Assembly (NCBI GenBank): GCA_937124585.1
Contig: CAKZKT010000030.1
Location: 1 to 60,169, forward strand
Direction: 5' to 3'
DNA length: 60,169 nucleotides
Source of the DNA: an uncultured Anaerolineae bacterium
Lineage (GTDB): Bacteria; Chloroflexota; Anaerolineae; CG2-30-64-16
Positions 3,113 to 49,353 of this stretch are shown piece after piece. Within the stretch, counting starts at the first letter, position 1. Every line of letters starts with the position of its first letter. The notes beneath the pieces are model-generated. The model was not told the DNA's origin and ran no database searches. It saw only the letters and a program-made list of their open reading frames with translations. Position numbers and translations under genes: made by a program.

Positions 3113-5914
3113 ATGAAACGGGATACCGCGTCTGCTCCTGCCTGGTCTACCCTTGGCCTGCCCGATGTGCTGGCCCGATTGCGCGTGGATGCATCTCAGG
3201 GGCTGACGCTGACCGATGTCGAGGCCCGGCGCGAGCGTTATGGGCTCAATACACTGCCCGGCCCGGATTACTCGTCTCGCTTTGTACAAAAGCAATTGAC
3301 CCATCCCCTGGCCCTGCTCTTGCTGGTTGCGGCGGCCGGCGCAGCGATCACGGGTGAACTCGCTGCAGTCGTGGCGCTGGGCGGCGTCCTGATCGCCAAT
3401 GCCCTGCTCCTGCTCGCCCAGATGCACCGCGCGACCCCTACCGTTGCGGCCGCGCGGCGCCTCGCCGCGACCCGTATACGCGTCCGCCGCGAAGGCCAGG
3501 AAATGTCCATCCCGGCAGCCCAGCTCGTACCCGGTGATATCGTGTTCCTGGAGACCGGCGAAACGGTGCCGGCCGATGGCCGGCTCATCGAGGTGGCCAA
3601 CCTGCACATCCGGGAAGATATCCTCACCGGCGAGCCGGAGCCGGCAGCGAAGATCACGGCCCCGGTTCCCGGCCCCGACGCGGCGCTCGATTACCGGCGC
3701 AACATGGCCTTCATGGGCACCACGGTCACGCACGGCCGGGGCCAAATGGTGGTGGTCGGGACCGGCATCAGCACGCAGTTGGGCCGCGTGGCACAGCTGA
3801 CGCAGGAGACGGCGCCACCGACATCGCCACTGAGTCGCCAACTTCACCGTGTAAGCCGGGAAATGGCCCTGGTCGCCTGCCTGCTGATCGGAGTGGCAGC
3901 CGGTCTGGGCATCCTGCTGACGAGACCGCTGCACGCCACCACGACCCAGATGGCTCGGCTGGCTCTTGCGCTCGCACCGGCGAGCCTGCCCCTGGTCGCT
4001 ACGGCGGCGTTGATCTTCGGCATTCGCCATATGAGAGCGCAACGCGCCCACATCCGTCGGCTGGACGCGGCCGCCACGCTCGCCGCGGTGACTGTGCTGG
4101 CCGCAGATCAGACCGGCGTGTTGACAGAAAACCATGTCGAGATCGTCGCCGTGGATCTGACGGGCCACCGGCTGGAGCTGCTCGCGAGCTATCATCGCGA
4201 CGAGCCGGTGATCCTGCCGGATGAACCGACCATGGCCGCCGACGATCTGTCGGCGACGTTGCGCTTGCTCCTCGCCGGCTGTGCGCTGTGTACCGATGCC
4301 GCCCTGCGCGCCGATCCGAGTCGGCCCGGTCACTTCCACGCGGCCGGCGATCCCAAAGAAGGTGCCCAGGTCGTAGCCGCAGCTCGCGCCGGCCTGTGGC
4401 AAAGCGACCTGAGCACCCTCTGTGGTCGCGTCGAAAAGCTGATGCCTCACGGCGAACGCCAGCGGATGATGACCGTGCATCAGGCAGACAGAAATCGTTG
4501 CATCGGGACGCCGTTTGCCGCCCTTTTTGCCCATCGCCCTACCCTCTTGCCGATGCTCTGGCTCGTGCTCTGCAAAGGCCCGGTCGAACAGGTGGCTGCG
4601 CTCTGCGATCACGTCTGGATTGCCAACCGGCCGGAACCGCTGGACGAAACCTGGCGCGCACGGCTGACTGCGCTGCACGAGGAGCTGAGCGCTCCCGACC
4701 GCATCGTGCTGGCCCTGGCGTTTCAGATCATCGAGCCAGAACTGACCGACAACTTCGAGGTGTCTCCCCATCTCCCTGCGGATACAGACCTGGAGCGCCA
4801 TTTTACACTGGTGGGGCTGATCGGCCTGGCCGATCCACCGCGCGCCGGCGCGGCGACGGCGCTGGCTGCCTGTCGGGCGGTAGACGTGCGGCCGGTGATG
4901 CTGTCTCGCGATCGGCCGGCGGCTGCGTCTCAGGCCGCCCGCGCGCTCGGTATCGGCGATGGCCGCATGGTGCGCGGAGCCGAGCTTGACCAGATGATGC
5001 CGGAAGCGCTGCAGGCCGCCGTCGCGGGAAGCGAGGTGTTCGCCGAAATCGCTCCCCGGCACAAACACACCATCGTCCAGGCCCTGCATCGCCGCGGTCA
5101 GATCGTGGCGATGACGGGCGCGGCCATAGATGATGTCCCGGCACTCATAGCGGCCGATGTCGGCATGGCGATGGGCGCGCAAGGCGCTGCTGTGACGCGA
5201 GATGCGGCCGCCGTGACGCTGCTCGACGACGACGTCACAACGCTTCCGGCGCTGGTCATCGAAGGCCGGCGTATCTGTGCCAACGTGGAGCGCTTCTTCC
5301 GGCTGGCGCTGGCCGGTAGCATCGGCAAAGCGTTCATCGCGCTGGCTGCGCCGTTGCTGGGGCTGCCCTTGCCGTTCACGCCGCTCCAGTTGCTCTACCT
5401 GAGCCTGGTCACAGACGGGGCGCTTGGCGCCGGCATCGCAGCAGGACGCATCCGCTCCGCCGCGGAAGAAGATGCGCCGTGCCGGTTCAGCTTCAGCCTG
5501 TTCGGCCGAGATGCGGGCCTGGGCCTGCTGGCGCGCGGCGCCCTGATCGGTGCCATCGGCCTGGCGCTCGGCATCATGGCCGGGATGCAGGCGATTCACG
5601 AGAGGCATTGGAATACCCTCCTTCTGACAGCCATCGTCGCGGGACAGGCGTTCCATGCCCTGGCGCTTCGACCCGAGGACAGCGCTTCGCCGATCATCGA
5701 ACCATCTCGCAACCGGTCGCTGCTGATCGCCATTTGCATCGCGCTCGGCGTCCATCTGGCCGTGCTCTATCTCCCCGGCCTGAACCGCCTGTTGACGGTA
5801 ACGCCGCTCGCGGCCGATGAACTGCTCATCGCCCTCGGCCTTGGCTCGGCGATGCTATGGGCCAGTGAGTTGCGTCGGTTGTTTGGCCGTTGGCTGTTGA
5901 GGCGGCCGATTTAG
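3113..5914 (+). CDS. P-type ATPase-like protein with eroded catalytic motifs
   Basis: 933 residues, length and layout of a P2-type cation ATPase: N-terminal cation-ATPase domain, actuator domain, phosphorylation and nucleotide domains, and C-terminal membrane helices. The start ATG was chosen because family similarity begins shortly after it. The phosphorylation site reads D332-QTGVLT instead of DKTGTLT, the actuator loop T172-GEP instead of TGES, the M4 segment PASLP instead of PEGLP, and the hinge motif near 667-676 MTGAAIDDVP instead of TGDGVNDAP; KGAPE reads KGPVE. The acceptor aspartate is kept, but the usual lysine and GDG residues are lost. It may be inactive, regulatory or mechanistically altered. 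The substrate cannot be assigned. Confidence 0.85.
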   Translation: MKRDTASAPAWSTLGLPDVLARLRVDASQGLTLTDVEARRERYGLNTLPGPDYSSRFVQKQLTHPLALLLLVAAAGAAITGELAAVVALGGVLIANALLLLAQMHRATPTVAAARRLAATRIRVRREGQEMSIPAAQLVPGDIVFLETGETVPADGRLIEVANLHIREDILTGEPEPAAKITAPVPGPDAALDYRRNMAFMGTTVTHGRGQMVVVGTGISTQLGRVAQLTQETAPPTSPLSRQLHRVSREMALVACLLIGVAAGLGILLTRPLHATTTQMARLALALAPASLPLVATAALIFGIRHMRAQRAHIRRLDAAATLAAVTVLAADQTGVLTENHVEIVAVDLTGHRLELLASYHRDEPVILPDEPTMAADDLSATLRLLLAGCALCTDAALRADPSRPGHFHAAGDPKEGAQVVAAARAGLWQSDLSTLCGRVEKLMPHGERQRMMTVHQADRNRCIGTPFAALFAHRPTLLPMLWLVLCKGPVEQVAALCDHVWIANRPEPLDETWRARLTALHEELSAPDRIVLALAFQIIEPELTDNFEVSPHLPADTDLERHFTLVGLIGLADPPRAGAATALAACRAVDVRPVMLSRDRPAAASQAARALGIGDGRMVRGAELDQMMPEALQAAVAGSEVFAEIAPRHKHTIVQALHRRGQIVAMTGAAIDDVPALIAADVGMAMGAQGAAVTRDAAAVTLLDDDVTTLPALVIEGRRICANVERFFRLALAGSIGKAFIALAAPLLGLPLPFTPLQLLYLSLVTDGALGAGIAAGRIRSAAEEDAPCRFSFSLFGRDAGLGLLARGALIGAIGLALGIMAGMQAIHERHWNTLLLTAIVAGQAFHALALRPEDSASPIIEPSRNRSLLIAICIALGVHLAVLYLPGLNRLLTVTPLAADELLIALGLGSAMLWASELRRLFGRWLLRRPI

Positions 5915-5922
5915 CGTCGTTT

Positions 5923-5951
5923 TTGGCGGCCGTTCGTCCTTGTGCTAGAAT
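5923..5951 (+). promoter_or_regulatory. Promoter of the O-antigen ligase-like gene
   Basis: TTGGCG (5923-5928), 17 bp, TAGAAT (5946-5951) preceded by TGC. Transcription from here argues for the TTG start at 5981 over an upstream GTG at 5942 that lies within the promoter. Confidence 0.65.
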
Positions 5952-5980
5952 CGGTTTATTCATCATGCAGGGTTGAGCGA

Positions 5981-7336
5981 TTGATCACGTTCTTGAAAGT
6001 CGGCTGGCGAGGTTTTGGCGCGGTTTTGCCCTGGCTGGAAATACTGGCCGCAGGCGTCGCCGCGCCGCTGTTGCTTTTTCCCACCGTGCGGCCCACGTGG
6101 ACGGCCGCCGTGCTGGTCGGCCTGGTGGCAGTCTATCTGCTGCGGCTGGTCGTGCGTCGCGAACCGTGGCCTGTGACGCCGTTCAACGGGGCACTTTTCC
6201 TGTTCATGCTCATGCTTCCCGTGGCGGTCTGGGCCTCGGCGTTCCCCGATCTGAGCCTGCCCAAGCTCACCGGCCTGATCCTGGGGCTGGCCGCGTTTCG
6301 GGCGGTCGCCTTCTTCGTGCATGATCGCCGCCGTCTGTTCTGGGCGCTGGCGGCTTTCTTGATGGTGGGCCTGGGCATCTGGGCCGTCGGCTTCTTGGGC
6401 ACAGGCTGGCCGGCGAAGTTTCCCGTGCTGGCGCCCCTGGTGCGGCGCCTGCCGCGTGCGCTGCTGGCGCTCCCCGGCTCGCCCGATGCAGGGATCAATG
6501 CCAATCAGCTGGCCGGCGCGCTGGTGCTCTACATTCCGATCGCCGTCAGCCTCACCGTGGGGTGGCTGCGAGAACGGCGCTTCGTGGCAGCTCTCGTCGC
6601 GCTCATCATCGGCGGCCTGTTCGCTGCGACGCTGGTGCTCACCCAATCGCGCAGCGGCTGGATCGGCGGAGTAGCCGGCATGATCGGCCTGAGCGTGCTT
6701 GCGGCCTGGAGCATGGGCAGAAAGTTCGGCCGCGTGCTCGCCCTGGCTTTGCTGAGCGCAGCCATCATTGCCGTCGTGGTGCTGGTCGCCATCCGGCCCG
6801 ACATCCTGGGCAGCTTCCTCGGTACCGCGCGCGATCCCGAAGGCGAAATCTCGCTCGCCGGCCGCCCTGAAATCTGGTCGCGTGCGCTGTATGCCATACA
6901 AGATTTCTCTTTCACCGGCACCGGCCTGGGGACATTTCGGCGGGTAGTTCACCTGCTTTACCCGCTGTTCATGATCAGCCCCGACATTGACATCGCGCAC
7001 GCGCACAACATCTTCCTGCAGGTGGCCCTCGACGTAGGCCTGCCCGGCCTGATCGCCTACCTGGCCTGCCTGTGGCTCGCCTGCGAGATCGCCTGGCGCA
7101 GCGCCAGGCAGGGTTCGGCTGCGCTGCGCGGCCTGGCGCTGGGGCTGCTGGCCGGGCTGATCGCGCTGCACATCTACGGCCTGACCGACGCGATTGCGCT
7201 GGGCGCCAAGCCGGGCCTCGCCTTCTGGCTGGCCCTGGGCCTCATCGCCGGCCTTGCAGGCCTGCATGACCCGGGCACGAGCTCCCGTGCGCAATCGGTA
7301 TCGCCGCCTACTGTGGGCGAAACGCAGCCGTGCTAG
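5981..7336 (+). CDS. O-antigen ligase/polymerase-like membrane protein
   Basis: 451 residues, almost entirely hydrophobic helices (about ten to twelve). The large periplasmic loop and following helix carry the Wzy/WaaL-type signature region GLGTFRRVVHLLYP...HAHNIFLQVALDVG (roughly residues 320-360), where a histidine-rich HAHN motif is typical. Known relatives join or polymerise lipid-linked glycans at the outer face of the membrane. The TTG start at 5981 is downstream of the promoter and has AGGG eight bases before it. No other polysaccharide gene adjoins it; the nearest glycan-related genes are at 14-16 kb. Acceptor and donor are unknown. Confidence 0.75.
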   Translation: MITFLKVGWRGFGAVLPWLEILAAGVAAPLLLFPTVRPTWTAAVLVGLVAVYLLRLVVRREPWPVTPFNGALFLFMLMLPVAVWASAFPDLSLPKLTGLILGLAAFRAVAFFVHDRRRLFWALAAFLMVGLGIWAVGFLGTGWPAKFPVLAPLVRRLPRALLALPGSPDAGINANQLAGALVLYIPIAVSLTVGWLRERRFVAALVALIIGGLFAATLVLTQSRSGWIGGVAGMIGLSVLAAWSMGRKFGRVLALALLSAAIIAVVVLVAIRPDILGSFLGTARDPEGEISLAGRPEIWSRALYAIQDFSFTGTGLGTFRRVVHLLYPLFMISPDIDIAHAHNIFLQVALDVGLPGLIAYLACLWLACEIAWRSARQGSAALRGLALGLLAGLIALHIYGLTDAIALGAKPGLAFWLALGLIAGLAGLHDPGTSSRAQSVSPPTVGETQPC

Positions 7337-10121: not shown

Positions 10122-10631
10122 ATGACATCAGAACAGACGACGACAGACGTGCGCAACGCCGCGCTGCGCCTGCTGACAAACGGCCTGTACGTCCTGACGA
10201 CCTGTGTCCACGATACGATCCACAGCGCCACAGTGAGCTGGGTCAGCCAGGTATCGGTGCAGCCGACCCTGGTGCTGGTCGCGTTGCGCCGCAACTCCCG
10301 GCTGGCGCAGGCAGTGCGCGAGGCGCATCGTTTTGCGCTCAACATCCTGGGCGCCGATCAGGAGGCATTGGCGGCCCAATTCTTCACCCACCATGTCGAG
10401 CCGGCAACCGCAACGCGCCTCGGCGATGCTGCATTTCGGCCCGGCTCAGGCCATTGTCCGCTGCTCACCGACGCGCTGGCCTGGCTGGAATGTCGGCTGG
10501 CCGCGGAGCTGACCTCGCCAGGCGATCATACGCTGGTGCTGGGCGAGGTCACGACTGCGGGCGTGCGCCGGTCGGGGCAGCCACTGGTGCTGGGGAACAC
10601 ACCGTGGGCCTATGGAGGCACACCAGAATGA
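10122..10631 (+). CDS. Flavin reductase-like FMN-binding protein, copy 2
   Basis: 169 residues, a diverged tandem paralogue of the preceding gene: SATVSWVSQVSVQP aligns with AATVSWVTQASFEP and both end in DTPWxYGG or NTPWAYGG. The start is 22 bases after the first copy's stop with GGAGGGTC upstream. The stop overlaps the ATG of the M20 hydrolase (ATGA), so the three genes form one translationally linked operon. Two different split-barrel paralogues may form a heterodimer, which is an inference. Confidence 0.85.
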   Translation: MTSEQTTTDVRNAALRLLTNGLYVLTTCVHDTIHSATVSWVSQVSVQPTLVLVALRRNSRLAQAVREAHRFALNILGADQEALAAQFFTHHVEPATATRLGDAAFRPGSGHCPLLTDALAWLECRLAAELTSPGDHTLVLGEVTTAGVRRSGQPLVLGNTPWAYGGTPE

Positions 10632-11818
10632 ACCTGAGCTATCGCGCCGAGGCTGAAGGTTTATTCTCACAGCTGGTGGCGTGGCGCCGCGACCTGCATC
10701 GCCATCCCGAGCTCAGCTTCCAGGAGGTGCGCACATCGGGCATCGTCGCCCGCACGCTGCTCGATCTGGGCTACGAGGTGCGCACGGGCGTGGCGCAGAC
10801 GGGCGTGGTGGCGCTGCTACACGGTGGTCGGCCTGGCCCGACGGTCATGCTGCGCGCCGACATGGACGCGCTGCCCATCCAGGAGAGCAGTGAGGCGTCA
10901 TATGCGTCGGCCCATCCCGGCGTGATGCACGCCTGCGGCCATGATGGGCACGTGGCCATGGGCCTGGGCGCGGCCACACTACTGGCCCGGCACGCCGCCG
11001 AGCTGGCGGGCAACATCCTGTTCGTCTTCCAGCCGGCCGAGGAGCGAGATGGCGGTGCGGCTGCGATGTTGGCATCCGGCGCGCTGCACGATCCCAAGCC
11101 GGATATCATCTTCGGGCTCCACCTGTGGAACACGCTCCCAGCCGGCCGGGTCATCGTACAGGCCGGGCCGTTCATGGCCGCGGCCGATGTGCTGCGCATC
11201 GTGGTGCGCGGTCGTGGCGGCCACGGCGGCCTGCCTCACGAGACGATAGACGCGATCGCTGTGACCGGTCAGGTGCTGACGGCGCTGCAGACAATCGTCA
11301 GCCGCAATGTGAATCCGCACGACACGGCAGTGCTCAGCATCGGCATGGTGCACGGCGGCACAGCCTTCAATGTCATCGCGGAAACGGTGGAGCTGTTGGG
11401 CACGCTGCGCACGTTCGAGCCGACTGTGCGCGAGACGGTTTTGGCCCGGCTGCGGGTGCTCCTGGACGGCGTCACAGCAGGCATGGGCGCCGAGGCTGAG
11501 CTGATCGTGGAGCCGCTCACCGGGCCGGTCATCAACGATCCGACCGCCAGTGAGACGGCCCGGCTGGCCGCGCTTCAGCTGGTCGGCAACGCGGCGGTCG
11601 GCCGGATCACGCCGCTGATGGTCTCGGAGGATTTCGCCGAGTACGGGAAGCTGGCGCCCTCCTGTTTCATACTGCTGGGTTCGGGCAATGCCGAACTGGG
11701 ATTGGATGCACCTCATCACAGCCCACGTTTCGACTTCGACGAGCGGGTGCTGCCCACCGGCGCGGCTCTGCTGGCTGCGGTCGCCACGCGCTATCTGGTC
11801 GAAAAAGCAGGCACATGA
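10628..11818 (+). CDS. M20-family metal-dependent amidohydrolase
   Basis: 396 residues, usual for amidohydrolase/IAL-type M20D enzymes such as hippurate hydrolase or N-acyl-amino-acid deacylase. Metal-binding motifs are complete: RADMDALPI, HACGHDGH near residue 100, QPAEE near 137, and HHSPRFDFDE near the C-terminus; GRGGHGGLPH marks the lid/dimerisation domain. The ATG overlaps the preceding stop by four bases. Substrate is an N-acyl amino acid or similar amide and cannot be narrowed. Confidence 0.92.
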   Translation: MNLSYRAEAEGLFSQLVAWRRDLHRHPELSFQEVRTSGIVARTLLDLGYEVRTGVAQTGVVALLHGGRPGPTVMLRADMDALPIQESSEASYASAHPGVMHACGHDGHVAMGLGAATLLARHAAELAGNILFVFQPAEERDGGAAAMLASGALHDPKPDIIFGLHLWNTLPAGRVIVQAGPFMAAADVLRIVVRGRGGHGGLPHETIDAIAVTGQVLTALQTIVSRNVNPHDTAVLSIGMVHGGTAFNVIAETVELLGTLRTFEPTVRETVLARLRVLLDGVTAGMGAEAELIVEPLTGPVINDPTASETARLAALQLVGNAAVGRITPLMVSEDFAEYGKLAPSCFILLGSGNAELGLDAPHHSPRFDFDERVLPTGAALLAAVATRYLVEKAGT

Positions 11819-30474: not shown

Positions 30475-30969
30475 ATGGGCCCACGCGTCGAATTTTTGAT
30501 CCGTCGGCTGCGCGCAGAGGGCGATGCGCTGTTGACACAGCTGCACGCGCTCGCGGTGGAAGCCTGGGCGACGCCCGTCTATGCCGGCGCCACGACCTGG
30601 ACGATTCACAGCGTGCTGGCACACCTGGTGAGCGCCGAGCACTACCTGCAACTGATGATCGCCGATATTGCGGCGGGCGGCCCGGGCGCGCCCGCCGACG
30701 TAGACGTAGACGCGATCAACGCGGCCGAAGTGGCGACGCTCACCCGGCTCAGCCCGGCCGAGCTGATCGAGCGCCTGGCCATGGCCCGCGAGCGAACCGT
30801 TGTGCTCGTCTCCACCTTCGACGAAGATACCCTCGATCGTCGCGGCCGCCATCCGGTGCTGGGCGAGATCACGCTCGATGACTTCGTCAAGCTGATCTAT
30901 CGCCACGCCAAAATGCACATGCGCGATGTCCAGCACGCGCAGAATTCAAATTTGATGAGAACAGGGTGA
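30475..30969 (+). CDS. DinB-like four-helix-bundle protein
   Basis: 164 residues, all-helical. Histidines at the expected DinB/YfiT metal-binding places: TWTIHSVLAHLVSAEHYL near residue 42 and YRHAKMHMRDVQ near 142. Function of such proteins ranges from thiol transfer to unknown. CAGGAG precedes the ATG. The stop overlaps the larE start (TGATG), so it may work with the Lar proteins, an inference from coupling only. Confidence 0.75.
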   Translation: MGPRVEFLIRRLRAEGDALLTQLHALAVEAWATPVYAGATTWTIHSVLAHLVSAEHYLQLMIADIAAGGPGAPADVDVDAINAAEVATLTRLSPAELIERLAMARERTVVLVSTFDEDTLDRRGRHPVLGEITLDDFVKLIYRHAKMHMRDVQHAQNSNLMRTG

Positions 30970-31775
30970 TGGAAGAGAAGCTAGAAAAACTGAAGCGTCT
31001 GCTCACCGACATGGGCAGCGTGGCTGTGGCCTACTCGGGCGGCGTGGACAGCTCGCTGCTGCTCAAGATCGCCCATGACTGCCTGGGCGATCGGGCGGCC
31101 GGCATCACCGCGGTGTCGCCCAGCGTGCCCGCGCACGAACTGGCGACCGCGCAGGAGGTCGCCCGGCACATCGGCGCCCGTCACTTCGTGATCGAATCGC
31201 ACGAACTGGAAGATGAGCAATACCTGACAAACAGCCCACAGCGCTGCTATTTCTGCAAAAACGCCACCTACAGCGAGTTGATCCCCTTTGCCCAGGCGCA
31301 CGGCTACCGATACGTGGTGGACGGCAACAACCTCGACGACCTGGGCGATCATCGGCCGGGCCAGCGGGCCGCGCGCGAGCGCGGGGTGCGCAGCCCGCTC
31401 CAGGAGGCCGGCTTCACCAAAACCGAGATCCGGACGCTGGCGCGACAGCTCGGATTGCCCAACTGGGACATGCCCTCGGCAGCTTGCCTTTCATCGCGCG
31501 TCCCCTACGGGACGCGCATCTCGGTGCCCATCCTCTCGCAGGTGGAGCGGGCCGAACTGGCGCTGCGCCGGCTGGGCCTGCGCCAGGTGCGGGTGCGCCA
31601 TCACGATCAGGTGGCGCGCATCGAGGTGCTGCCGGAGGATTTTCCTACCGTGCTGGCGCACCGCGAAGTGCTGGTCAACGAATTCAAGACGCTGGGCTAC
31701 ACCTTCGTGGCGCTCGACCTGGCCGGCTTTCGTTCCGGCAGCATGAACGAGGTGCTGACACAACATGGACGTTGA
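30969..31775 (+). CDS. larE: ATP-dependent sacrificial sulfur transferase LarE
   Basis: 268 residues. It converts the carboxylates of pyridinium biscarboxylic acid mononucleotide to thiocarboxylates for the nickel-pincer nucleotide cofactor. The PP-loop SGGVDSS is at residues 23-29, and C173 in SAACLSSR is at the position of the sacrificial cysteine of the lactobacillar enzyme. A second pair, C93 and C96 (RCYFCK), is present. Start overlaps the dinB-like stop; the end overlaps larB by 11 bases. Confidence 0.94.
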   Translation: MEEKLEKLKRLLTDMGSVAVAYSGGVDSSLLLKIAHDCLGDRAAGITAVSPSVPAHELATAQEVARHIGARHFVIESHELEDEQYLTNSPQRCYFCKNATYSELIPFAQAHGYRYVVDGNNLDDLGDHRPGQRAARERGVRSPLQEAGFTKTEIRTLARQLGLPNWDMPSAACLSSRVPYGTRISVPILSQVERAELALRRLGLRQVRVRHHDQVARIEVLPEDFPTVLAHREVLVNEFKTLGYTFVALDLAGFRSGSMNEVLTQHGR

Positions 31776-32541
31776 TCGCTTACGCGCGCTGCTGACAGAG
31801 GTCCATTCAGGTCGGCTGGATGTGGAGCAGGCGCTCGACCAGCTGCGCACCCTGCCCTATGCCGACCTGGGCTATGCCCGGCTCGACACCCATCGAGCAC
31901 TGCGCCAGGGCCTGCCCGAGGTCGTCTTCTGCCAGGGCAAAACGGCCGAGCAGGTGGCCGGCATCCTGGAACGGCTCTGGCAAGACCACGATCGCGTGCT
32001 GGGCACGCGCGCCGCGGCCGAGCAGGCCGCGTTCGTACAAGCGCGGCTGCCCGCGGCCCGCTATAACCCGGTCTCGCGGCTGATTACCCTGGCGCGCACG
32101 TCCCTGCCCCCGCCGGCCGCGACGGCGCCCTACGTCATGGTGGTGACGGGCGGCACGGCCGACATGCCCGTCGCCGAAGAGGCCGCCCAGACTCTGGAAT
32201 TCCTGGGCCGGCGCGTCGTGCGCGCCTACGATGTGGGCGTCGCCGGCATCCATCGCGTGCTCAGCCGCGCCGAACAGCTGGCCGACGCCGCAGTGGTGAT
32301 CAGCGTGGCCGGCATGGAGGGCGCGCTGACCAGCGTCGTGGCCGGGCTGGTCAGCTGTCCGGTCATCGGTGTGCCGACGAGCGTGGGCTACGGCGCGCAT
32401 TTCGGGGGCGTGGCGCCCCTGCTCACCATGCTTAACTCCTGCGCGCTCGGCGTGGCCGTGGTGAACATTGACAACGGCTTCGGCGCAGCCGTGTACGCGC
32501 ACACGATTCTCAGACAAAACTGTCGGGGTGATGCCACATGA
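31765..32541 (+). CDS. larB: Nickel-pincer cofactor biosynthesis protein LarB
   Basis: 258 residues. LarB carboxylates and hydrolyses nicotinic acid adenine dinucleotide to the biscarboxylic acid mononucleotide. The PurE-like core is seen in VMVVTGGTADMPVAEEAAQTLEFLG near 125 and in SVAGMEGALTSVVAGLVSCPVIGVPTSVGYG near 185, typical of the family. Overlaps larE and larC at either end (ATGA with larC). Confidence 0.95.
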   Translation: MDVDRLRALLTEVHSGRLDVEQALDQLRTLPYADLGYARLDTHRALRQGLPEVVFCQGKTAEQVAGILERLWQDHDRVLGTRAAAEQAAFVQARLPAARYNPVSRLITLARTSLPPPAATAPYVMVVTGGTADMPVAEEAAQTLEFLGRRVVRAYDVGVAGIHRVLSRAEQLADAAVVISVAGMEGALTSVVAGLVSCPVIGVPTSVGYGAHFGGVAPLLTMLNSCALGVAVVNIDNGFGAAVYAHTILRQNCRGDAT

Positions 32542-33707
32542 AGATCGCCTATTTTGACTGTATCGGCGGCGCCAGCGGCGATATGATCCTGGGTGCTCTG
32601 CTGGATGCCGGCCTGCCGCTGACGACCTTGCGTGAACGGCTGGCCGCGCTGCCGCTGCGCGATTTCACGCTCGACGCGCGGCGGGTATCCAAGAACGGCT
32701 TCAGCGCCACAAAAGTGGATGTCGTCGTCGCGGACGATGCGCCGGAGCGCCATCTGGCCGAGATCGCGGCCATCGTGGAGGCCGGCGACCTGGCGCCAGG
32801 CATCAAGGAGCGAGCGCTGGCCATCTTTCGACGCCTGGCCGAGGTGGAGGCGAACATCCACGGCACGAGCGTGGACCACGTGCATCTGCACGAGCTGGGC
32901 GGCGTGGACACCATTGTGGATGTGGTCGGCTGCCTGGTGGGACTCGACGCGCTGGGGATCCAGCGGGTCTACGCCTCGCCTCTGCCGTTGGGCCGCGGGT
33001 TCATCCGAGCCGCACACGGCCAGATCCCGCTGCCCGCGCCGGCCACGGTGGCCCTGCTGCGGGGCGCGGCGGTCGTGGGCACCGACATCGAAAAGGAGAC
33101 GGTGACCCCCACCGGCGCCGCGCTGCTCACCGCGCTGGCGGCCAGCTTCGGGCCTATCCCGGCGATGACGTTGACCGCGGTGGGCTACGGCGCAGGCGGC
33201 CGCGACCTTCCCATCCCGAACGTCGTGCGCCTGCTGATCGGCGATGGGGTCGCGCCGACACATCTGGGCGTGGAATCGGTGGCCATCCTGGAGACCAACA
33301 TTGACGATCTCAACCCGCAGATGTATGATTATGTCATGGCTCGGCTGTTCAAAGCGGGCGCGCTCGACGTGTTTCTGACGCCGATCCAGATGAAGAAGAA
33401 CCGGCCCGGCACGCTGTTGCGCGTGATTTGTCGGCCAGATGACAGTGGGCCGCTCACCAATATCCTGCTCGCCGAAACGAGCACGCTGGGCGTGCGCCAG
33501 CAGATCATGGCGCGCGTGTCTCTGCGCCGCGAGGTGCGGACGGTGGAAACGCCCTACGGCCAGGTGCGCGTCAAGATTGCGACGCTGGGAGATGGGACGC
33601 GGCGTGCCGCGCCGGAATACGACGACTGCCGGCGGCTGGCCGAAGAAACGGGCGCGCCCCTGCGCGAGATCACTCGCGCCGCCGAACGCGCCGCCGACGA
33701 CATGTAA
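32538..33707 (+). CDS. larC: Nickel insertion protein LarC
   Basis: 389 residues, encoded as one uninterrupted gene rather than larC1/larC2 with a programmed frameshift. LarC is a CTP-dependent nickel cyclometallase that completes the pincer cofactor. The N-terminal FDCIGGASGDMILGALLDAG, VHLHELGGVDTIVDVVG near 113, and the C-terminal ETNIDDLNPQMYDYV near 254 match the family. The user enzyme, lactate racemase LarA or a homologue, is not in the window. Confidence 0.95.
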   Translation: MKIAYFDCIGGASGDMILGALLDAGLPLTTLRERLAALPLRDFTLDARRVSKNGFSATKVDVVVADDAPERHLAEIAAIVEAGDLAPGIKERALAIFRRLAEVEANIHGTSVDHVHLHELGGVDTIVDVVGCLVGLDALGIQRVYASPLPLGRGFIRAAHGQIPLPAPATVALLRGAAVVGTDIEKETVTPTGAALLTALAASFGPIPAMTLTAVGYGAGGRDLPIPNVVRLLIGDGVAPTHLGVESVAILETNIDDLNPQMYDYVMARLFKAGALDVFLTPIQMKKNRPGTLLRVICRPDDSGPLTNILLAETSTLGVRQQIMARVSLRREVRTVETPYGQVRVKIATLGDGTRRAAPEYDDCRRLAEETGAPLREITRAAERAADDM

Positions 33708-44720: not shown

Positions 44721-44981
44721 TCACTTGCGGCTGCGCACTGCGGGGGGCAGCGTGCGCACAGGGAACGGCGTGTGCCTGGCGGGGGGCGGCGTCCCAAACC
44801 CTGTCCCGAAAACCGGCCGGGTTGGCCTGGTCGCATAGGGGCCTGCCATCCACGGCAATAGCGCTGAATTATTGAACGATGACCCTGCCGCGAGATTTCG
44901 GAGCGCCTGTGGGATGTCCTGCAACCAGTCGTTCCGTTGTTGCGCGGTCATCAAGAAGTAGGCGAAGATGGCATCGCTCAT
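44721..44981 (-). CDS. Unrecognised 86-residue protein at the end of the MNIO cassette
   Basis: ATG overlaps the stop of the preceding small ORF (ATGA). The N-terminal half looks helical (SDAIFAYFLMTAQQRNDWL), the C-terminal half is Pro/Arg-rich (PPPARHTPFPVRTLPPAV). No cysteine and no family recognised. The longer frame upstream in the same phase is Arg/Gly-rich and unlikely to be translated. Its translational linkage places it in the MNIO operon, so it may be a substrate, immunity or accessory peptide; this is an inference. Confidence 0.5.
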   Translation of the reverse strand: MSDAIFAYFLMTAQQRNDWLQDIPQALRNLAAGSSFNNSALLPWMAGPYATRPTRPVFGTGFGTPPPARHTPFPVRTLPPAVRSRK

Positions 44982-45241
44982 GCCCCTGACACGGCGCCAG
45001 CGGCAGACGCCCCCGTGCCCCCGCTGCCGGGCAACGTGCCTGTAACCGGATTGCACTGCTGCAGCAGCCGGCTGATGCTTTTCCACGTCTCCTCGCCGCG
45101 GCGATAGCCTGCGGACCCGGCCGGCGCCAGGACCAGGAGCGCCTCCGCGACGTCCTGCGCCTGGCGCAACGTTTGGCGTTCTTCTGCGCCGATGGCGCAC
45201 TCAATGAAACGGAAACTTGTGATACCCCGAGTTGGGTCCAA
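44978..45241 (-). CDS. Unrecognised small protein coupled to the MNIO gene
   Basis: Up to 87 residues if translation starts at TTG 45241 inside the MNIO gene; an ATT at 45205 that overlaps the MNIO stop codon is the only nearer start-like codon. Third positions are strongly G/C in this frame past 45201, whereas the two other frames look non-coding. Composition: a helical middle (EERQTLRQAQDVAEALLVLAP), SISRLLQQCNPVTG, and a Gly/Ala/Ser tail. Cysteines lie at about residues 15 and 67. No family recognised. Confidence 0.5.
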   Translation of the reverse strand: MDPTRGITSFRFIECAIGAEERQTLRQAQDVAEALLVLAPAGSAGYRRGEETWKSISRLLQQCNPVTGTLPGSGGTGASAAGAVSGA

Positions 45242-46700
45242 ACGTGACGCTCTCAGGGCCGTTGCCGGTCAGCATGATCTCTAGATCAATCCTTTCCTGT
45301 TCGCCGGCAAACAATTCGCCACCTGCGAGCGCCTCAAAGACGGGTACGGGATCGAAGTCGAAGCGCACCACCCGCTGCTTCCCGTCAACTAGGGAAGCGG
45401 CATTAGCGCGTTCGAACGCCAACACCTGGTTCAGGTACGGGATCTCCAGGCGTTGCGCGGCGAGATAGCCAGCAAAAGCCTCTGCCTCGGCCGACGCGTA
45501 TCCTTGCGGAGGAACTTGCGCCCAGCACTCCCCCATCAGGGCGCGAACGGCGTCCGTGCCGAGGGTCAGGAGGAGCAGCCGCATGGACATGGGCAACACC
45601 CGGACAAGCATGGAAGCACGGAACTCGCGAATCATTGCGGCGACCAGCAACACACCCTGGTCGCCGGCCAGCTCACGGCTCAGCGTTTCGGCGCCGGGCG
45701 TCCGGCCGATGACCAGGTTGCCTAGCGCGCGTTCCCACATCGCCGGAGAGGGGCCTTCGTCAAAAGATACCGGCATTGCCGTGCGACTGGATCGCACGGG
45801 CAGCGGCTCGTCCACGGCTGTACCGCGTAGTGACCAAAGCTCATGCAACCGTTCCATTTGGGCATAGATCACAGCCGCGCCTGCGGTTTCCACGAAGGAA
45901 GGGAAGATCTCGAAGATGATCGCTTTGAGATTGGGCAGACGCGAAACGATGATCCGCGAGGCTTCGAACAGCGGGTCGGGGATAGCTCCTGAGTGGGCAT
46001 CTATCCAGAAGCCATCCAGCTCCATGCCGCCGGCCAGGTGAATTTCCCAGACCCGTTCCAGCGGGATCTCGGCCAGAAACTCGGCGACCGTCTGGCGGCC
46101 GTTCAGAGCGTTGGCGAAGATGTTGTGCAGATCGAGCAGCAGCCCACAGTCGGCGTTGCGCACTACAGAACCAACGAACTGGCCGTCTGGCATCTCGTCG
46201 GAGCGCCTGCGCAGGTAGTTCACACCCGTCTCGACGGCGATCGGCACGCCCAGCCCCATTTGCAAATCCCGAACCGATGTACAGGCAACTGCCACCCCTT
46301 CAGGGGTCTGGCGGGGCGGCAGGAAGAAGCCTGTACGAAACTCAGGTGTTGAGTTGAAGCTGAGATGATCGCTCGCCCACGGCGACTGTAGCTTCTCGAT
46401 AGCTGCACGCAGCAGGGCCAACTGACCCGGATCGGGCCGGACTGTGCCCCCAACCGGAGTACCGACGCTATGCACCAGCTTCCGCATCGGATAATCCACC
46501 AGCCGCGCCAGGGTGCGCTCGTCGGGCCGGTAGGCTGCCGACTCTCCCGGCACTTCGACCCAGCTCGTCTGCGGCTCGAATTCGAGCACATCGAAGAGCT
46601 CGGGCCTGGCCTCCAGGAGGGGCTCGACCTCCGACGCGAAGGTGATACCCACTCCCAACTCAGGGAGATGTGAGTTGTCGTGCTGATAGGATAGCGACAT
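45201..46700 (-). CDS. MNIO (DUF692) oxidative enzyme fused to a DUF2063-like partner domain
   Basis: 499 residues against about 280-300 for a usual DUF692 enzyme. ATG at 46700 with GAGGGAC upstream. Residues about 12-300 are the TIM-barrel multinuclear iron enzyme: GVGITF, ASDHLSF (H112), AVETGVNYL (E157), LLLDLHNIFANALN (D190, H192, N193), WEIHLAGG (H221), IDAHSGAIPD (D234, H236) and FEIFP (E264) match the iron-ligand pattern. Residues about 315-480 resemble DUF2063 partner proteins (RALMGECWAQV, FAGYLAAQRLEIPYLNQVLAFERANAA). Family knowledge: MNIOs oxidise cysteine or other residues of precursor peptides with such a partner. The fusion call and the substrate are inferences. Confidence 0.8.
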   Translation of the reverse strand: MSLSYQHDNSHLPELGVGITFASEVEPLLEARPELFDVLEFEPQTSWVEVPGESAAYRPDERTLARLVDYPMRKLVHSVGTPVGGTVRPDPGQLALLRAAIEKLQSPWASDHLSFNSTPEFRTGFFLPPRQTPEGVAVACTSVRDLQMGLGVPIAVETGVNYLRRRSDEMPDGQFVGSVVRNADCGLLLDLHNIFANALNGRQTVAEFLAEIPLERVWEIHLAGGMELDGFWIDAHSGAIPDPLFEASRIIVSRLPNLKAIIFEIFPSFVETAGAAVIYAQMERLHELWSLRGTAVDEPLPVRSSRTAMPVSFDEGPSPAMWERALGNLVIGRTPGAETLSRELAGDQGVLLVAAMIREFRASMLVRVLPMSMRLLLLTLGTDAVRALMGECWAQVPPQGYASAEAEAFAGYLAAQRLEIPYLNQVLAFERANAASLVDGKQRVVRFDFDPVPVFEALAGGELFAGEQERIDLEIMLTGNGPESVTFGPNSGYHKFPFH

Positions 46701-46735
46701 GGTGTCCCTCACTGCGTGCAAGGTGATGCTCCACT

Positions 46736-47263
46736 TCAAGAGATCAATGGATCGTTGGTTCGCGCCACAAGTGGGAACTGCGCAAAACCAATGGCATCGA
46801 AGGATGCCAGCATTTCTTTTAGTTGTGGGTTTTCGGCAAGGTTTTCAGCAGGACTTTTTGCCCCGGGTTCCGCCGCAAAGAACTTGTCCATAACTTCTTT
46901 TCGGCCTACCATCAGGGCAACCCTGGCCGGTCGTACAAGCTCTTCTGCAAAAACGGTGTGGCCGGGCCGGATCCTACCGACGTTGATAACACCGCCATTG
47001 ACTCCTTCGGCCAACACCAGGTCATCGTCAAGCCTGGTCAGTCGCTCCAGCTTGAACCCATTGCCGATAATCGTACCGCTGCCTCCGAAGTCTGCACTTT
47101 CCTTGACGAAGATCAACGGAAAGCCACTGCAGCACTCCGGGCAGCCCAAGTCACTGACAGTCCTCTTCAACGCTTCCAAAATGCTGACCACAGGATCCGG
47201 CGCCGAGGCCGAGAACCGAGATGAAAAGCGAGGATTGGTTGAAAGCGTTAGTTCGAAGTCCAT
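46736..47263 (-). CDS. Unrecognised 175-residue protein with CPECC motif, candidate MNIO substrate
   Basis: Ideal AGGAGG five bases before the ATG. Three cysteines, C41, C44 and C45, cluster in GCPECCSGFPL; there are no others. The remainder is mixed alpha/beta (VINVGRIRPGHTVFAEELVRPARVALMVGRKEVMDKFF). It ends 35 bases before the MNIO start, so the two are almost certainly co-transcribed. MNIO enzymes usually modify cysteine-bearing precursor proteins encoded next to them, so this is a candidate substrate, although the motif is central rather than C-terminal. A metal-binding partner protein is the alternative. Confidence 0.75.
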   Translation of the reverse strand: MDFELTLSTNPRFSSRFSASAPDPVVSILEALKRTVSDLGCPECCSGFPLIFVKESADFGGSGTIIGNGFKLERLTRLDDDLVLAEGVNGGVINVGRIRPGHTVFAEELVRPARVALMVGRKEVMDKFFAAEPGAKSPAENLAENPQLKEMLASFDAIGFAQFPLVARTNDPLIS

Positions 47264-47299
47264 GTTAGCCTCCTGTGCGTGTGTTAGTAAGGTTTGGAA

Positions 47300-47506
47300 T
47301 CAAATGGGCCCTTCTACGAGGGCGGTTGCGAGCAACATGTCCCGCAGTCGCATCAGTTGCGAAAGCAGTTCCTCGATCTGTCCGGGCGTCACACCTTCAT
47401 CGTTATCATGCGCGTTCCCCGCCTGCCGATGGCAGCAGTAGAGCGTAATAGCTGCGTGCATAGCGGTCATACGTACCTGTGCCTTGAATAGTTCTGTGTC
47501 TGACAT
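47300..47506 (-). CDS. Unrecognised 68-residue protein with adjacent cysteines
   Basis: AAGGAGA eight bases before the ATG. Predicted mostly helical; C24-C25 in ITLYCCHRQ, then GVTPGQIEELLSQLMRLRDMLL. It ends 36 bases upstream of the 175-residue gene. Size and position suit a precursor peptide or a small regulator; no family recognised. Codon third positions are less GC-biased than in flanking genes. Confidence 0.65.
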   Translation of the reverse strand: MSDTELFKAQVRMTAMHAAITLYCCHRQAGNAHDNDEGVTPGQIEELLSQLMRLRDMLLATALVEGPI

Positions 47507-47684: not shown

Positions 47685-49304
47685 TCACCCCACCGGCGCC
47701 TTCAACCGTGTGATCGGGTACGGAGCGACGCTCATCTCGCTGGATCGAAACCGCGAGCACACGTTCAGCCGCATGGCCGCGCCGCCGTGGGGCAGACGGT
47801 AGAGGGTGAAGACCCCTTCCTGGCTCGGCTTGCCATCCAGCAGGGCGATCTGTTTGCGCTCGCGCAGGCTGTTGTAGTAGCCGATGAGCTGCTGCAGATA
47901 TTCGCCTTCGCCGCCGGGCGCCTCGGGGATCCGGAAGTGCGCCACCAGTTGGCGCCGCTCGTTGAACACCAGCGTGCCGCCGAAATCCACCGGAATCGGC
48001 CCCCACTCCGGGATGAGCAGGGCTTCGATGGGATAGGTGTACTCGATGATGGTCTCCTTGATCGGCTGCGCGCCCCTGGAGGTGACGCCGGACTGATCCA
48101 CGAAGTTGATGGTGGGGAAGTTCAGCCGCACCATGGTGTTCGAGGGGATGCCCAGGTCGTCGCGGTGGCGATAGATGAACTCGTACAACTCGCGCGGCTC
48201 CTGGGCCCGGTTCCATTTCAGGCTGAGGGCCGGCGCGGTCGTCAGCTCCTCCGGATCGGTGACGATGCCCCGCTCGGCAAAAACCTGCTTGATCACCTGC
48301 CGGTAGCCGTGCTCGTCTTCGGGGAACGCTTGCGCGTCTGCTGCGATCAACGCCTGGCCGTAAGTGCGGAAGAAGGCCGCAGTGGGCGGCATGTAGTTGA
48401 TGGCGCGGAACGCGATGCGGCGCAGGTGCCGCGTGGCCTCGATCAGCGCCTCGGCGTCGGTCAGCGCCTCGTCCGTGCGGCGGCGGTTGATCTCGTAGAA
48501 TGCCACCAGGATCTGGTACATGGTGGCAGTCAGCAGCACCGAAAAGTCGTGGATCTCGGTGCCCGCAGCCTCACCATAGGTGATGGGGTCGCCGGCGTAG
48601 CGCAGGAAGTAACGGCCCGGCCCATAGAGGCCGTAGCCGAACTCCTCGGCCATGAGCGAGGCGATGTTGGGCCGATTCAGGTCGCCGCCCGTCGCCTCCA
48701 TCACGCGCGCCACCACCTCCGGGAAGGTCAGCGCTGAGAACATCGCGCACAGGTCGCCGAATGCCTCGTGGAACGCGCCCGTTTCCACCGGGGCGAAGCC
48801 GAAGTAGAAGGGTTTCAGGCCATCCAGCGCCGCGTGGCCCAGCTCGTGCGCCACGATATCGTGCGAGAGGGCGGTAAACACTTTGCCGACGCGGAACGCG
48901 ATATCGAAGTAGAAGAACGCCAGCGCGCCCTCATCGCGCGAGTAGTAAGCGTTGCGGTCTTGCAGGTAGTGGGGATGGATGGCCAGCTGGGGGCCAAAAG
49001 CCCAATGCACCTGCCGGCCGATGGCGCTCTCGATCATCTCCAGGGTGCGGCGGGCAACGGCGAAGGCGTTGACCTGGTGCGTGCGCACGTCGTCCGGGCC
49101 CAGCAGCTCGAACGCGTTCTGATCCGGCAGGAAGCGCGCCGGCTGGTAGACTGCTCCCGCGCTGTGGTCCACGTCGTGGACGATGAACTGCGCGTCGCGC
49201 GGGCCGCTCTCCAGGTGGACGTTGGGAATGGCGATGGTCACCCGCTCCGGCGTGGACAGCGGGTCCTGTGCCCAGATCTGGACTTCAACGGGGTCTTGGC
49301 TCAT
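47685..49304 (-). CDS. Gluzincin (M4-like) metalloprotease without signal peptide
   Basis: 539 residues from the ATG at 49304 with AAAGGAG eleven bases upstream. Zinc motif H153-E-L-G-H157 in DIVAHELGHAALDG and the third ligand E180 in TGAFHEAFGDL resemble the HExxH and GxxNEAxSD motifs of thermolysin-like M4 peptidases. No signal peptide or membrane helix is seen, so it is cytoplasmic or exported by an unusual path. C-terminal 250 residues are of unclear fold. It has its own SARP-box-like promoter and lies 178 bases upstream of the small-ORF/MNIO cassette on the same strand, so it might process those products; this is speculative. Confidence 0.82.
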   Translation of the reverse strand: MSQDPVEVQIWAQDPLSTPERVTIAIPNVHLESGPRDAQFIVHDVDHSAGAVYQPARFLPDQNAFELLGPDDVRTHQVNAFAVARRTLEMIESAIGRQVHWAFGPQLAIHPHYLQDRNAYYSRDEGALAFFYFDIAFRVGKVFTALSHDIVAHELGHAALDGLKPFYFGFAPVETGAFHEAFGDLCAMFSALTFPEVVARVMEATGGDLNRPNIASLMAEEFGYGLYGPGRYFLRYAGDPITYGEAAGTEIHDFSVLLTATMYQILVAFYEINRRRTDEALTDAEALIEATRHLRRIAFRAINYMPPTAAFFRTYGQALIAADAQAFPEDEHGYRQVIKQVFAERGIVTDPEELTTAPALSLKWNRAQEPRELYEFIYRHRDDLGIPSNTMVRLNFPTINFVDQSGVTSRGAQPIKETIIEYTYPIEALLIPEWGPIPVDFGGTLVFNERRQLVAHFRIPEAPGGEGEYLQQLIGYYNSLRERKQIALLDGKPSQEGVFTLYRLPHGGAAMRLNVCSRFRSSEMSVAPYPITRLKAPVG

Positions 49305-49353
49305 GATTTGGTCAACTCCTTTCAATGCACTTGATTTATACAATTACGGCATA

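Follow-up and report, generated by a model that had tools for sequence, protein, structure and literature searches.

A candidate two-gene modification cassette in an uncultured Anaerolineae bacterium, in which an MNIO is joined to its usually separate partner

What does an MNIO do when the partner protein, usually separate, is joined onto it in the same polypeptide, and which protein would such an enzyme modify? The question is raised by P0001, a protein of 499 residues encoded on the minus strand (45201..46700, behind the ribosome site GAGGG) of the window, by which we mean the whole stretch of 60,169 nucleotides analysed here (contig CAKZKT010000030.1). A first-pass annotation, made from the letters of the DNA, had proposed a one-polypeptide maturase acting on unfamiliar substrates and surrounded by a cassette of small ORFs.

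The answer begins with the catalytic domain. P0001 matches the profile PF05114 far above its curated cut-off (E 1.2e-43, 149.7 bits, cut-off 25), is the only MNIO of the host genome (4.83 Mb in 164 contigs) and has 26 homologues, many of them full length. The DUF692 ligand pattern that had been read in this ORF is genuine: all seven residues, H112, E157, D190, H192, H221, H236 and E264, are invariant in 24 aligned enzymes, as are H77, N193 and D234, and the ligands line up with those of TglH. The AF2 model, built from the 24-enzyme alignment (an input of four sequences had left the tail unmodelled), has a mean pLDDT of 88.9, and its residues ~10-290 (45831..46673, minus strand) form a TIM barrel like those of TglH and MbnB, the best solved matches found by Foldseek being TglH (8hci and 8hi7, E 2e-17), 3bww and MbnB (7fc0, E 1e-11; 7dz9). 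By profile, ligands and fold P0001 is a true MNIO, for which a multinuclear iron cofactor and an O2-dependent oxidation of a peptide are predicted. It belongs to none of the named NCBIfam MNIO types, because it stays far under every equivalog cut-off: 124 bits against 310 for BufB, the top-scoring profile (E 4.8e-36), 92 against 360 for HvfB, 89 against 400 for ApyH, 61 against 600 for ChrH and 11.3 against 325 for the methanobactin enzyme MbnB (TIGR04159).

The C-terminal region, residues ~319-480 (45261..45746, minus strand), had been said to resemble DUF2063 partner proteins, a resemblance which holds at the level of homology but not at that of the Pfam signature. Compared by hhalign, the fused tails match separate MNIO partner proteins with 99.7% probability (E 4e-25, 156 columns) and, weakly but perceptibly, DUF2063 proteins of the BufC/NGO1945 type (71.6%, E 3.5e-5), to which the separate partners as a group align at 93% (E 2.9e-7); the window tail alone has no Pfam match, PF09836 being absent up to E 10. 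DUF2063 is touched by 11 of 15 separate partners (best E 5e-5) and matched by 4 of 24 homologous tails (best E 2e-4). The tail is modelled with a pLDDT of ~85-97 as seven helices followed by a strand-helix-strand unit, an arrangement which we interpret as suiting a DUF2063-like domain that keeps a short remnant of RRE type. As to a fold match to NGO1945 (3dee) or TglI, the top 50 Foldseek matches listed for the whole of P0001 are all to the barrel; when the PDB was searched by profile, chance matches only were returned for the tail, for the separate partners and for the precursor.

Elsewhere, first in G250, the equivalent of the tail is a protein of its own encoded directly after the MNIO, the arrangement found in 44 loci once two frameshifted fusions are set aside; in the window, as in the 24 loci classed as fusions, it shares an ORF with the MNIO. 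Judged by homology, the tail is the usually separate MNIO partner joined onto the enzyme and, in the terms of Antoine et al., a PME-type 2 domain, with partner homology and without the DUF2063 signature. The PME-type 2 partner described in the available passages of that paper (PMC12452194) has its own gene after the MNIO gene, which is not so for the window tail. Two separate-partner arrangements may be recorded here: a tyrosinase-like protein is encoded directly after the CxxCxSG-MNIO-partner set of G250 (L011, 5034-6518), and on a Moraxella plasmid an IS4 transposase gene lies between the MNIO gene and the DUF2063 partner gene (L101, 2233-3405).

How often, and how many times, has this fusion been made? 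When 84,980 species genomes were scanned with an alignment of four enzymes as query, 80 loci came to light, and the enzyme carries the tail in 26 of them (L017-L042), spread over five phyla; a scan with P0001 as the sole query gave no matches. Identity to the window enzyme is 38-58% in the 23 homologues whose completeness allowed alignment, and the 26 include two frameshifted members (L040, L042) and a truncated one (L041). Closer to the host, neither the 400 phylum genomes searched nor those of 40 near relatives contain a close copy, no viral copy was found, and the tail profile gave in 298 genomes of the class two matches besides the window, G611 (apparently the same as L019) and G544. The fused enzyme is therefore real and widespread across phyla, yet rare and patchy. 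In a tree of 85 MNIO domains, which includes no curated bufferin enzymes, all fused enzymes and the two frameshifted members make one clade (SH-aLRT 99) apart from all sampled separate-partner enzymes, and a single change between fused and separate suffices; because the fused enzymes make one clade, the fusion probably arose once. The clade brings together Pseudomonadota, Actinomycetota, Acidobacteriota, Chloroflexota and Cyanobacteriota, the rows nearest to the window being a Solirubrobacteraceae MAG and two Chloroflexota MAGs. Third codon positions are less GC-rich in the cassette, as the first-pass annotation had remarked: GC3 is 0.73 in P0001, 0.59 in P0004 and 0.61 in P0005, against ~0.78-0.90 in correctly framed neighbours (the reference gene 10629-11818, taken in the wrong frame, adds slight noise to the codon model and was left out of this comparison). 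Horizontal transfer is favoured by the mixture of five phyla in one clade, taken together with a cassette that has a lower GC3 and is rare in relatives; contamination of MAGs could be the source of single odd cases.

Which protein, then, would the fused enzyme modify? P0004 (175 residues, 46736..47263, minus strand, behind an AGGAGG site) stands 35 bases upstream of P0001 and is, among the 1339 ORFs of the window, the sole match (E 4.2e-6) to a precursor profile built without the window. Its residues 40-47 (47123..47146, minus strand) read GCPECCSG, where CPECC is a CxxCC motif and Cys44 corresponds to the invariant cysteine of the precursor alignment. The motif [CHS]xxCx(A)[ST]G is found in the directly upstream ORF at 23 of the 26 fused and 38 of the 44 separate loci, while among control windows the rate is 2.3% (47 of 2038); the homologues thus do keep a small ORF beside the enzyme, which was the outcome to be looked for in the neighbourhood comparison proposed earlier. 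In the alignment it is the second Cys, the serine and the flanking glycines that are conserved, the first Cys is often replaced by His, and the usual form in the fused clade is G[CHS]xxCx[ST]G, then one variable residue, then D or N. As for the three fused loci that lack the motif, the precursor is degenerate in L025, and the enzyme is truncated in L041 and frameshifted in L042, from which precursor and enzyme genes seem to decay together. The degenerate precursor, GCPAWSSG, is that of Massilia frigida, and the broken enzymes without a precursor come from a Streptomyces and a Luteimonas.

P0004 is longer than most of its relatives, contains three cysteines and has one motif domain, whereas several fused-clade precursors, those of the close relatives L018, L019 and L116 among them, have two; its last ~115 residues match nothing. 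It has no match in Pfam or NCBIfam, and no model in Pfam, NCBIfam or the PDB matches the precursor family. Because only the motif region is conserved, a search with P0004 alone through 400 phylum genomes, plasmids and viral contigs brought up no relatives; a search of the host genome, with an alignment that included P0004, found no second precursor copy. Such a length, a domain without a known role and the lack of a visible leader-core boundary could also be expected of a partner or regulatory protein, the substrate of the enzyme being encoded elsewhere. We regard this as quite unlikely: what the family conserves is the cysteine motif itself, the order precursor-MNIO-partner is that of the bufferins, and in cyanobacterial relatives with a separate partner (L043, L046, L049 and L061, from Nostoc and Brasilonema) CPxCRSG[VF]D comes directly after a GG-type leader, as is typical of precursors. 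P0004 is accordingly retained as the probable substrate of P0001. No GG-type leader was seen in the fused clade; its presence on the separate-partner branch suggests that the wider group probably includes exported peptides. In L074, from a member of the Bacteroidota, the precursor upstream of the MNIO has the motif twice in a short stretch (CPECRSGF...CPTCRSGF) and is possibly multi-core.

The comparison with known systems bears on the chemistry to be expected. As BufB is the closest NCBIfam profile by score, the cassette might be a bufferin relative that installs thiooxazoles on a copper-buffering peptide; it shares with BufB/BufC the gene order and a predicted cysteine target, and cysteine-directed chemistry is the commonest in the MNIO family according to the available passages of Antoine et al. 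(PMC12452194). Bufferins, however, have a separate DUF2063-RRE partner, a Sec signal peptide and DoxX and sigma-factor genes, while here the score is well below the BufB equivalog cut-off, the DUF2282/Buf2 precursor is absent (P0004 does not match it in Pfam or NCBIfam), no Sec signal peptide or hydrophobic segment is visible by eye in the P0004 N-terminus MDFELTLSTNPRF, DoxX and sigma-factor genes are absent among the recurrent neighbours of fused loci, and the fused clade stands apart in the tree described above. A bufferin relationship of this kind is, in our judgement, unlikely. With TglHI of Pseudomonas syringae the likeness is structural, TglH being the best structural match of the catalytic domain, with a His at the position of H192 and likewise working with a partner protein; it differs in that this partner is separate and the substrate is a cysteine appended to the C-terminus of a scaffold peptide, and none of the other tgl genes is seen at the window locus.

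The nearest descriptions of the substrate are found in the available passages of Antoine et al. 2025 (PMC12452194), where ten adjamnio-IV precursors (CxxCC, 119-146 residues, 5-6 Cys) are listed without chemistry, in the gene order precursor-MNIO and with no partner gene, an absence that a fused tail would explain. P0004 is like them in its CxxCC motif and in the place of its gene directly before the MNIO, and unlike them in its 175 residues and three cysteines; the precursors of L024, L033 and L034 (Rhodobacterales; 140-145 residues, 5-6 Cys) do fit that description, from which we infer that relatives of P0004 belong to adjamnio-IV. By taxon and motif, the GCRPCLSGLD proteins that precede the MNIO in the Lysobacter loci L054, L056 and L057, where the partner is separate, would correspond to adjamnio-7, whose CxxC precursors, represented by a Novilysobacter protein, are also listed without chemistry in these passages (PMC12452194). 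Of the early proposal of a one-polypeptide maturase with unfamiliar substrates, the first part is supported by the homology of the fused partner, and the second has to be restricted, as relatives of the substrate appear to fit groups already listed. The same passages (PMC12452194) make no mention of a fused partner; the nearest precedent that they offer is MovX of Vibrio, an MNIO with an extra domain proposed as its partner, which is a winged helix-turn-helix and not a helical PME domain, and which belongs to a different cluster. In the literature searched, the scope of which did not extend to subscription titles, no description of an MNIO-PME fusion or of its chemistry was found. The combination of MNIO, partner and cysteine-containing precursor is of a known kind, on which the single-chain architecture and its precursor family are a new variation.

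How far does the cassette extend beyond these two genes? All four small ORFs reported to flank the enzyme exist, and the two with adjacent cysteines are P0004 and P0005 (68 residues, 47300..47506), both with strong Shine-Dalgarno sites; P0002 (44978..45241), which overlaps the end of the enzyme gene, and P0003 (86 residues, 44721..44981), in ATGA overlap with P0002, have a weak coding signal, and all lie on the minus strand. The homology that ties P0004 to the enzyme does not extend to P0005, P0002 and P0003, putative members which have no convincing counterparts in homologous loci and so fall outside the conserved unit. Among 97 neighbour proteins of fused loci, no family recurs except in near-identical genera or as common enzymes, and no transporter, protease or signal peptide is recurrent in the fused clade. 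Because no other neighbour recurs, the conserved unit, as far as gene neighbourhoods tell, is one of two genes, precursor P0004 and enzyme P0001. None of the three findings named at the outset as speaking against the reading, a tail unlike partner proteins, a loss of ligands or the want of a conserved small ORF, was made.

A likeness of P0005 to a gene adjoining the L115 cassette was tested and is not significant. P0002 and P0003 joined (44721-45241) align with a 294-residue protein encoded downstream of that cassette (5786-6670) with a score of 65, the best of 500 shuffles reaching 56, and the alignment includes the short FAYxLMTxxQR similarity of P0003; the two ORFs may be a frame-split remnant of the gene seen in L115. 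P0006 has no close relative. The region upstream of the cassette (47685-49343) encodes a very divergent HELGH metallopeptidase under the Pfam M4 cut-off (17.3 bits against 22.4), and at 30966-33707 three adjacent ORFs resemble by eye LarE, LarB and LarC of nickel-pincer cofactor synthesis. The possibly broken downstream ORFs, the lower GC3, the rarity of the cassette in relatives and the divergence of P0004 from the precursor family would all suit a transferred fragment in decay that no longer works. The frames of P0001 and P0004 are nevertheless intact, their ligands and motif are kept and their ribosome sites are strong, and we consider such a loss of function highly improbable.

The model we favour, and which we believe to be probably correct, is a compact two-gene modification cassette in which P0004 would be the substrate and P0001 a one-polypeptide maturase. 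It is built on the computed domain identities, the intact ligands, the homology of the tail, the strict CxxCxSG linkage and the single fused clade, and from it we infer that P0004 is modified, with Cys44 as the site. In MbnBC and TglHI, it is the partner that leads the precursor to the catalytic subunit (PMC12141560); by analogy, the C-terminal domain, in the role of MbnC, TglI or BufC, would bind P0004 and present its GCPECCSG segment to the iron centre of the MNIO domain; the oxidation that this centre would carry out with O2 would have Cys44, the invariant cysteine, as its focus. Oxazolone-thioamide, thiooxazole and carbon excision are among the known outcomes of MNIO action on cysteine (PMC13174530; PMC12538549). 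The modification made here may be of the heterocycle type known from other MNIOs. That Cys and His replace each other in the first place of the motif is suggestive of metal binding. Several characterised cysteine-modifying MNIO products bind copper, and on these two grounds our guess is that the mature protein would bind a soft metal such as copper. As no transporter, protease or signal peptide recurs, the product may remain cytosolic, as a small protein that bears a modification. A wider proposal, possible but put forward tentatively, is that of a self-sufficient, horizontally spreading two-gene system, whose fusion would turn the invariant cysteine of [C/H]xxCxSG, in a small protein that is not exported, into a new metal-binding or redox group; its product would then be a modified protein of the cytosol instead of a peptide that is cleaved and secreted.

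In conclusion, MNIOs carry out some of the most unusual cysteine chemistry known, and the role of the partner with which they usually act has been deduced for the most part from a small number of complexes. A naturally occurring single-chain enzyme whose substrate is encoded by one gene is close to the simplest system in which to ask what the partner does. The fused pair suits both the determination of an enzyme-substrate structure and a two-gene readout, in E. coli, of a possibly new modification, and the precursor family, now defined and without a matching model in Pfam or NCBIfam, has a motif by which further members can be mined.
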